Of a stretch of 33,459 bases of DNA, positions 31,104 through 33,459 are shown one piece after another. Source of the DNA: Treponema sp. (lineage in GTDB: Bacteria; Spirochaetota; Spirochaetia; Treponematales; Breznakiellaceae); NCBI GenBank assembly GCA_031282065.1, contig JAITEL010000149.1, forward strand, positions 1 to 33,459. Direction: 5' to 3'. The notes beneath the pieces are model-generated. The model saw only the letters and a list, made by a program, of their open reading frames with translations, did not search any database and was not told the origin of the DNA. The position numbers and the translations under genes are program-made. Every line of letters begins with the position of its first letter. Within the stretch, counting starts at the first letter, position 1.

Positions 31104-31610
31104 GAAATATCTGGAAACAGGATAAACCTCCGGTAAAGTCTTTAGTCAGCAGGCCATTCCTGCGGAACGAGCCGGCTCTTTCGGCTTGCAGCCAAAAGTA
31201 TATGTGGACCAAAAGGCCCCAAAAGTCCATAGTTAACGTTAGGGATATTAGGTGTTGTTAGCAAGGACGTAATGCCTCAAGATAAAAATCCCCGCCACAA
31301 GGCGGTTATCATGTATTTTAAAAATAAAGGTCTTCCCTGTCTTTTTCCGATCTTTCAGAAGAGGAAAGGGGTACGTTTTTCAAAGACAGAGCAGATGCAC
31401 AAATGCGTCCGCCCCTGGCGGAAGCCTTCCAGGAGTCAGGCAGGGCGCGGGACAAAGGCCCGGGAGAGGCCGTACTCCTTCGGGGGCCTTGCGATACAAT
31501 GGCCCTGAAACGGGCATATCCTGCGGCAACGCAGGGATCCTTTATGGAAGGACAAATTCGACTTTTGAGGCTGTTCTTACCCTAAGAAGGACCTGTATCC
31601 GGGCGATCCC
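31104..31610. other. Non-coding stretch with small hairpins
   Basis: About 500 nt without a supported gene; the frames present have no ribosome-binding site and odd composition. Small inverted repeats include GCAGG/CCTGC (31149-31163), AGCCG/CGGCT (31170-31186), CCGCC/GGCGG (31292-31305) and CCTGCG-GCAA-CGCAGG (31520-31535), the last closed by a GNRA-type tetraloop. A lone TGCGTC at 31404-31409 is the same hexamer that forms the array further down. Confidence 0.5.
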
Positions 31611-31808
31611 TGCGTCTGTATGGCTATCCCCTGCGTCTGTATCAATATTCTATGCGTCATTTACGGTAGGTAATACGGACGCATCTATAAGTATTCCATG
31701 CGTCAAAGAAGGGGAAAAGACGCAGAGAACAGCAATATATGCGTCCATAATAACGATACCGACGCATGAAACAGTGAAACCTGCGCAGATATTAACCGGA
31801 AAGATGCA
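31611..31808. repeat. Phased array of TGCGTC/GACGCA hexamers, about 21-bp period
   Basis: Exact or near-exact hexamers start at 31611, 31632, 31653 (TGCGTC), 31678 (GACGCA), 31699 (TGCGTC), 31719 (GACGCA), 31740 (TGCGTC), 31761 (GACGCA), 31782 (TGCGCA) and 31803 (GATGCA). The steps are 21, 21, 25, 21, 20, 21, 21, 21, 21, about two helical turns. The two hexamers are reverse complements, so sites face both ways on one side of the helix. The intervening 14-19 nt differ, apart from CTGTAT shared by the first two units. It ends 127 nt before the caspase/WD40 gene. Confidence 0.85.
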
Positions 31809-31935
31809 TGGAAAAGGCCTTCCCGCCACGGAACAGGCCGGGACGGAGCACGGTAAGCCAGCAGGATTGCCCCGCGGCTCAAGGCATGGTATCCTGGGGT
31901 GTACCTGTTTATACCATACATGGAGGACAAGACAG

Positions 31936-33459
31936 ATGACATCGACGATGCTTCACCGCCCCAGGACCAGGGCTGCTTCCCGGAGGGCCCTGCCCCTGTT
32001 CGCGGCAGTTTTGTGGTGGGCGGCGCTGCCGCTCCCGGGGCTTTCCGCGCAGCAGAAATACGCCCTGGTAATCGGGAACGGGGCCTATACGGGCATTACC
32101 CGGCTGAACAACCCGGTGAATGACGCCGGCGACATAAGCGCGGCCCTGCGGGGCCTGGGCTTTACCGTGGATCAGCTGACCAATGCGGGCCGGGTGCAGA
32201 TGGAAGAAGCGGTCATACGGCTCAAGAACCGCCTGGCTGCGGCCCAGGGGTCTTACGGCTTTTTCTATTATGCGGGCCACGGGGTGCAGTCGGAGGGCGA
32301 AAATTACCTGATACCGGTGGATGCGAACATCCCCAGCGAGGCGTACCTGCGGGACCGGACGGTGTCCATGCAGGCGGTCCTGGAGGAGCTGAATGAGGCG
32401 GGGAACGTTCTGAACATCGTGGTGCTGGACGCCTGCCGGGACAACCCCTTCAGCTGGAAACGGAGCGGCAGCCGGGGCCTTCAGGTGGTAACTCACCAGC
32501 CCGCGGACAGCATCATCGTGTACGCCACCAGCGCGGGCAGTACCGCCGCGGACGGAGAAGGCAGGAACGGGCTTTTTACCACCCACCTTTTGAACAACCT
32601 GAAAAAGCCGGACTTGAGCGTCCGGGACGTGTTTGACAGAACCGGCGCGGACGTGCGCCGGGCCTCAGGCGGCAGCCAGATACCGGCCATCTATTCGCAG
32701 TTTTTTGATGTGGCGTATTTGGGAAACAGGCCCGCCGCCGCGGTACAGCCGGTTCCCGCGCCCGTAAAACCCGCGCCGGCGAGCGCGGCGCAAAGTACAA
32801 TAAAACCCGCGCTGCAGCCAGGCCCCGCGCCCGCGCCGGTACAGCCTGCGGTGAAGCCGCAGCCGGCGACCGAGGCATGGTCCCTGATCCGTACCCTCTC
32901 CGGGCATAGCGAATCGGTTAGGTCCGTGGCCTACAGCCCCGACGGCAGGCGGATCGCCTCGGCGTCGTATGATCACACCATCAGGATCTGGGACGCGGAA
33001 ACCGGGGCGCCTCTCCGCACCCTCTCCGGGCATAGCGGCTCGGTTCATTCCGCGGCCTTTAGCCCCGACGGCAGGCGGATCGCCTCGGCGGGGGCGGAAG
33101 ATATGGCCGTCAGGATCTGGGACACGGAAACCGGGGCGCTTCTCCGCACCCTCTCCGGGCATCGCGCCGTGGTTCTGTCTGCGGCCTTTAGCCCCGACGG
33201 CAGGCGGATCGCATCGGGGGCGGATGATAAGACCGTCAGGATCTGGGACGCGGAAACCGGGGCGCTTCTCCGCACCCTCTCCGGGCATAGAGACTTGGTT
33301 CGTTCCGTGATCTTTAGCCCTGGCGGCAGGCGGATCGCCTCAGGGTCGTGGGATAAGACCGTCAGGATCTGGGACGCGGAAACCGGGGCGCTTCTCCGCA
33401 CCCTCTCCGGGCATAGTATCAGTATTGCTTCCGAGGCCTTTAGCCCCGACGGCAGGCGG
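31936..33459 (+). CDS. Exported caspase-fold peptidase with WD40 repeats (partial, runs off the window)
   Basis: Reading frame open from the ATG at 31936 to the window end, 508 residues so far. GGAGG lies 9 nt upstream. Residues 1-38 look like a signal peptide ending LPLPGLSA before Gln, so the protein is probably secreted or periplasmic. Residues 41-262 are a C14 caspase/metacaspase p20-like domain: KYALVIGNGAY, LNNPVNDAGDISAALRGLGF, the catalytic His115 in YYAGHG and Cys167 in VVLDACRDNPF, followed by IVYATSAGSTAADG. A Pro/Ala-rich linker (about 265-313) leads to WD40 repeats of 42-43 residues (LSGHxxxVxSxAxSPDGRRIASxxxDxxVRIWDAETGA). The region is visibly more GC-rich than the rest of the window. 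Substrates are unknown. Confidence 0.88.
   Translation, partial: MTSTMLHRPRTRAASRRALPLFAAVLWWAALPLPGLSAQQKYALVIGNGAYTGITRLNNPVNDAGDISAALRGLGFTVDQLTNAGRVQMEEAVIRLKNRLAAAQGSYGFFYYAGHGVQSEGENYLIPVDANIPSEAYLRDRTVSMQAVLEELNEAGNVLNIVVLDACRDNPFSWKRSGSRGLQVVTHQPADSIIVYATSAGSTAADGEGRNGLFTTHLLNNLKKPDLSVRDVFDRTGADVRRASGGSQIPAIYSQFFDVAYLGNRPAAAVQPVPAPVKPAPASAAQSTIKPALQPGPAPAPVQPAVKPQPATEAWSLIRTLSGHSESVRSVAYSPDGRRIASASYDHTIRIWDAETGAPLRTLSGHSGSVHSAAFSPDGRRIASAGAEDMAVRIWDTETGALLRTLSGHRAVVLSAAFSPDGRRIASGADDKTVRIWDAETGALLRTLSGHRDLVRSVIFSPGGRRIASGSWDKTVRIWDAETGALLRTLSGHSISIASEAFSPDGRR
32896..33459 (+). repeat. Tandem near-identical 126-bp repeats encoding WD40 units
   Basis: The sequence CTCTCCGGGCAT recurs at 32896, 33022, 33151, 33277 and 33403: spacings of 126, 129, 126 and 126 bp (42, 43, 42, 42 codons). 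Blocks such as GACGGCAGGCGGATCGC and GACGCGGAAACCGGGGCGC are identical in several copies. The differences concentrate in the blade loops. The fifth copy is cut by the window end. Such high DNA identity suggests recent expansion or gene conversion. Confidence 0.9.

Follow-up and report, generated by a model that had tools for sequence, protein, structure and literature searches.

The 33,459-nucleotide window, which is contig C14 of genome G000 (2.65 Mb, 179 contigs), carries at positions 31611..31808 of the forward strand a degenerate copy of a phased, dyad-symmetric array with a 21-bp unit, from which the associated protein-coding gene is missing. At other loci, arrays of this type are located directly upstream of genes for a protein family composed of a helical domain and a fibronectin type III (FN3) domain. 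The gene directly downstream of the window copy encodes a caspase/WD40 protein instead, and this copy is an orphan rather than the full unit of array and gene. No described system that matches the pairing of a phased dyad array with a helical/FN3 gene was found in the open-access literature.

The window array contains eight exact TGCGTC/GACGCA hexamers, which start at 31611 (+), 31632 (+), 31653 (+), 31678 (-), 31699 (+), 31719 (-), 31740 (+) and 31761 (-). The orientation is thus +++-+-+-, and the successive steps are 21, 21, 25, 21, 20, 21 and 21 bp. Two degenerate sites continue in phase, the ninth being a perfect palindrome, TGCGCA, at 31782..31787 and the tenth being GATGCA at 31803..31808. 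The ten hexamers phased at about 21 bp that were reported in an earlier note on this DNA are therefore real, in the precise form of eight exact sites and two variants. In copies that bear the family gene, the counterpart of the tenth site is GGAGCA, which sits inside the GGAAAGGAGCATATATG ribosome-site/start region. When chains of any hexamer and its complement with steps of 20-25 bp are considered, the longest has eight members in the array, two in the remainder of the window (1-31500) and two to three in 60 dinucleotide shuffles of the sequence.

The spacers between these sites had been described as nonrepetitive, which proved to be wrong. Their mean pairwise identity is 0.42 compared to 0.28 after shuffling, and none of 5000 shuffles gave a value as high. 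The consensus of the unit is TGCGCA-TATATCAnTGATATA, a degenerate repeat of 21 bp with dyad symmetry (p=0.001), one mirror axis lying in the hexamer and the other in the spacer. Phased sites and a degenerate 21-bp satellite had been offered as alternatives; both descriptions hold, and they do not exclude each other, as the spacers themselves form a degenerate repeat.

Pattern searches of G000 revealed a near copy of the array on contig C72, as well as more arrays on C97 (three, C97a-c), C111 and other contigs. The similarity to C72 extends over a duplicated block at 31511..31878 (+) that is 86% identical to L030:9207-9549 and comprises the 3ˊ end of a recQ gene (stop near 31566) followed by the array. 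The C72 segment likewise begins in the 3ˊ-terminal part of a gene for a recQ-type helicase, and its array is placed between recQ and a converging gene (gene names from translations). Relative to C72, the window copy has carried the recQ tail along and has gained one whole 21-bp unit (31611..31631, +), such that the unit number of the two copies differs by exactly one period. It also has a 4-bp GGTA duplication in the resulting 19-nt spacer at 31659..31677, which accounts for the single 25-bp step.

A caspase (Peptidase_C14)/WD40 gene, whose start codon was read from the sequence, occupies 31936..33459 (+) and ends at the contig edge. The distance of about 127 bp from the end of the array to the caspase ATG is compatible with a phased operator of this gene, the association that the earlier note had implied. 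This candidate was rejected once the recQ-tail duplication was seen, because the array arrived within the duplicated block and its other copy lies between recQ and the converging gene. In addition, no other array among the homologous ones found precedes a caspase gene. An operator role is highly improbable, and the caspase/WD40 gene is judged to be an incidental bystander. The WD40 region at 32888-33459 is itself a 126-bp tandem repeat (84% matches) that continues up to the contig end, which is likely an assembly break.

Homologous arrays are found directly upstream of helical/FN3 family genes on C97 (C97c), C111 and C31, and also in two relatives, G007 from the same genus and G013 from a different genus of the family. 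The proteins at these five loci begin like MANRxDWIP. Read in gene orientation, the homologous arrays have a common site order in which the single 20-bp step is central, and the same central arrangement occurs in both relatives. In the window, this step corresponds to a 14-nt spacer at 31705..31718, roughly midway through the part of the array in which orientations alternate; this central spacer is common to the window, C72, C97a-c, G007 and G013. Among five copies compared, the hexamers are 87-98% identical and the spacers 59-66% (87% for the spacers of the closest pair); without that near-identical pair, hexamer identity is 87-97%. Sites 1-6 are missing from the C111 array, whose junction coincides exactly with a hexamer.

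In addition to the window and C72 arrays, C97a, C97b, L032 (like L031) and L130 (like L106) are copies that match family-gene arrays and are without the gene. The C97a array precedes a DNA methylase gene and the C97b array an lpoB-like gene. Among ten genomes of the genus with an lpoB match, only G000 has the lpoB array, which is absent from all eight relatives with a readable upstream region (8/8). A TTGACA...TATAGT-type promoter before lpoB is kept in most of the relatives that are without the array.

The family protein has a helical domain of about 115 residues followed by a C-terminal FN3 domain (AlphaFold2, pLDDT 92), and the FN3 assignment is backed by matches to FN3 domains. No Pfam entry matches the family, and no PDB entry matches its helical N-terminal domain. 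A single-sequence search gave 19 matches in G000, and the family is present in 29 of the 99 genomes searched. A scan of named genomes placed it in Treponema, Tannerella, Dysgonomonadaceae, Prevotellaceae and Oscillospiraceae; judging by the isolate names, we take the bins concerned to come from termite guts. Nearly every member has a private array with a different unit, examples being TGCGCTGAGGGCGGCGGAGGC, GGCGTTACAACGCCAGACCTT and TCCGATCGGATACAGAATAAA. A single family gene, likewise with an array (L095), is present in G038, which represents a cultured relative. The earlier suggestion of a family-specific repeat was thus the right lead, although the family is a far larger one and crosses phyla. 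A relative from Phycisphaerales and another from Spirochaetia are without an upstream 21-bp array. Carriage by viruses was considered and rejected, as viral contigs gave three weak relatives only and no clear 21-bp array lay immediately ahead of any of these. For some pairs of family proteins, the identity of one domain is about 80% while that of the second is about 20%, a mosaic look that is partly due to truncated C-termini.

An array with a period of 21 or 42 bp lies within 500 bp upstream of 73 of the 93 evaluable family genes from Treponema, Bacteroidales and Oscillospiraceae, and a few others have a weak upstream array. Arrays of any kind were found downstream of 4/93. The family-gene arrays have 5-22 countable units with a period of almost always 21 bp, and of 22 bp in one case. 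Within G000, upstream arrays occur at 17/19 family genes versus 6/169 control genes (Fisher p=2.6e-17), where the genes of one genome are not fully independent, gene starts were estimated, and the controls are long ORFs and not annotated genes. The score for array periods was lag identity, taken against a fixed threshold of 0.58 or 0.62; most of the genomes compared are metagenome-assembled, and genome-wide array counts come from sampled stretches.

The proposal of phased sites two helical turns apart is supported by these comparisons, and the hexamers are conserved above the spacers. Dozens of arrays with no sequence relationship have the 21-bp step, which indicates that the step is somehow constrained. 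Dyad symmetry is also general: out of 73 arrays, 51 reach p<0.05, where 3.7 would be expected, and 30 reach p<0.01. A single consensus for all arrays was sought and rejected, as only a weak shared core emerged (4.65 bits versus about 3.6 in shuffles).

Symmetric units could in principle act as RNA, and many units of family-gene arrays are able to form a hairpin. In type III toxin-antitoxin systems (ToxIN, CptIN, TenpIN), locus-specific tandem repeats likewise lie directly upstream of one gene (PMC5086642), and transcribed repeats bind or restrain the downstream protein. Unlike in those systems, however, the dyads here show no RNA-type covariation. Mismatches on the sense strand are of the G.U type in 229 cases versus 293 of the A.C type, and therefore have no wobble bias, a result by which an RNA hairpin array was rejected; compensatory double changes number 68 versus 51 +/- 5.5 expected. 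In type III loci, a terminator separates the repeats from the toxin gene (PMC5086642). As read by eye, the arrays here often run into the ribosome site, and in some loci a promoter-like sequence is located between array and gene. The family protein, made of FN3 and helices, is not a ToxN-like endoribonuclease. An RNA array of this kind is very unlikely.

The same period equals seven codons, and a heptad repeat coded on the minus strand had also been suggested for the window. Open frames are slightly commoner than in column-shuffled arrays (1.27 versus 1.01), about equally on both strands. Array variability is nevertheless without codon-position periodicity (0.437 versus 0.447 for the null), and every frame in the window is broken by the 20-bp and 25-bp steps. 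Coding heptads were rejected on the absent codon-position signal, and their probability is close to negligible. The dyad symmetry, the lack of a G.U-type excess and the lack of codon-position periodicity together argue that the symmetry and step of the arrays belong to double-stranded DNA and reflect neither an RNA hairpin nor a peptide.

The reading that we tentatively prefer is that the arrays are dyad sites on one face of the helix, probably bound by the product of the adjacent gene, and that copies without the gene are relics or passengers. Each unit would serve as a site for a symmetric (dimeric) protein, and the 21-bp step would set all sites on one helix face and permit cooperative filling. 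The likeliest binder would be the product of the adjacent gene, because the unit is private to every locus and no other neighbouring gene is conserved at the family loci; the protein would thereby control or mark its own locus. Arrays without the gene are present elsewhere in the genome, and the window copy is one that was duplicated along with the recQ tail. The window array is considered a relic or passenger because its partner gene is gone.

Two known arrangements, among others, resemble this one. Plasmid iterons are direct repeats of 17-22 bp, about two helical turns, that lie upstream of rep, vary in copy number and may be bound by the rep product. The arrays here share the two-turn repeats, the variable copy number and the position immediately upstream of a possible binder's gene, but they differ in that the gene encodes a helical/FN3 protein and not a replication initiator (Pfam gave no Rep match for the downstream proteins), the units are mirror-symmetric and wholly different between loci, and the arrays are chromosomal with many per genome. 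Partition centromeres of the parC/ParR type are arrays with a period of about 11 bp, one turn, upstream of the gene for their own binder, which assembles a cooperative nucleoprotein complex on locus-private sequences. Phasing, position upstream of the putative binder and private sequence are common to both, whereas the period here is 21 and not 11 bp, the helical domain is without a known fold, and the family loci have no ParM- or ParA-like partner, that is, no partition motor or CTPase gene as a conserved neighbour.

We place the probability of this binding-site reading somewhat below even, because the binder is one that we infer and the fold of the family lends it no support: no DNA-binding fold was recognised in a protein made of FN3 and helices. 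Coevolution between the array and a particular domain of the protein was looked for and rejected, the partial correlations being equal (0.137 for the N-terminal and 0.141 for the C-terminal domain), so that a binding domain could not be picked. Also counting against it, promoter-like sequences precede the array in some loci and follow it in others. Moreover, family proteins with 60-75% identity in the N-terminal domain can be paired with unrelated units, and a single conserved mode of recognition could hardly account for this without a very rapid turnover of specificity. A broader proposal, to which we give a rather modest probability, is a system of cis-array and gene in which the helical/FN3 protein binds a private, fast-evolving dyad array phased at 21 bp. 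Selection would act on period and symmetry, not on sequence, and the pairs would spread between phyla in termite guts, each with its own specificity.

The main rival to the binding-site reading invokes a mutational process as the source of the 21-bp repeats. The arrays would be neutral minisatellites in which slippage or unequal exchange generates and homogenises short palindromic repeats and sets their period, and the family gene would merely lie beside a hot spot. Like minisatellites (VNTR), the arrays have head-to-tail units, rapid turnover and copy changes by whole units, as in the gain of exactly one period between the C72 and window copies. In three sister species (G000, G006 and G007), dnaE is preceded by a 21-bp array whose sequence is unrelated to that in the other two, and in two further species (G002 and G010) it is preceded by none; the loci are L112:18963-19224, L288, L289 and L292. 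The same genomes are rich in intergenic arrays of 21 and 23 bp, and array periods peak at these two values in the sampled sequence of G000. Many arrays of both periods occur in G013, and two single-contig genomes have zero and one 21-bp array in 400 kb each. Several orphan 21-bp arrays are copies of family-gene arrays. The orientation of orphan arrays to genes is unbiased (15 versus 21), and therefore not all arrays are promoter elements. Unlike VNTR, however, the arrays keep period and dyad symmetry while their sequence changes, and they are tied to one gene family across phyla, nearly always on its upstream side and at the frequencies given above for G000. The greater conservation of hexamer cores than of spacers, and the fact that no sampled 23-bp array adjoins the helical/FN3 family, also weigh against this process, and we consider it rather unlikely.

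A third possibility is that the units are relatives of REP sequences moved by a RAYT-type Y1 transposase, with the arrays as their clusters. REP/BIME elements are likewise short, palindromic intergenic repeats with alternating orientation and regular spacing (PMC3733652, PMC2817692), and 21-bp array copies without the gene do exist. In G013, 23-bp arrays adjoin Y1_Tnp-like genes. Some such genes in G000 also have a 23-bp array at a distance of up to 1.5 kb, and 3/9 Y1_Tnp loci of G000 show an array of 23 or 24 bp. A 21-bp array, in contrast, is within 1.5 kb at none of these loci (0/9). CGTC-tagged REPs need stems of 8-9 bp, loops of 4-5 nt, a tag and a tail (PMC3733652), a geometry that does not fit a 15-nt spacer between hexamers. 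REP families also share their sequence within a genome, whereas no unit is shared across the loci here. A REP origin of the 21-bp arrays is improbable.

Repeats are usually classed by sequence, whereas here the length, two turns of the helix, and the symmetry are what is conserved, and both attach to a single, unstudied gene family that occurs in at least three phyla inhabiting the same gut. Should the arrays be bound, they would represent a new kind of self-specific pairing between DNA and protein, with dozens of natural pairs of operator and protein. Otherwise, these cells contain something that writes 21-bp and 23-bp repeats very regularly, and that would amount to a new process of mutation. 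Every locus makes a prediction of its own site, and sister species differ by the gain, loss or replacement of whole arrays.

The 23-bp arrays, often dyad-symmetric, were rejected as the same element and kept as a separate class, since none sampled adjoins the family and some are near RAYT-like genes. Examples are found at L031:1459-1745, L036:9336-9542, L105 and L239-L253, among others, and those adjoining or near RAYT-like Y1 transposase genes include L245, L246, L305 and L309. Locus L253 has two 23-bp arrays upstream of a gene beginning MAKETYWKVWLTSNRLTKDVENDFVAEV, which may resemble HU-like DNA-binding proteins of Bacteroidales. Very long arrays with a 21/42-bp period (about 800-1100 bp) are present in G013 at L254:16595-17715, L246:14540-15346 and L255:5365-6217. 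Finally, a GACGCA-N15-TGCGTC pair with near-identical flanks occurs on two contigs, outside longer arrays, at L034:9301-9327 and L035:14-40, and is probably another repeat.
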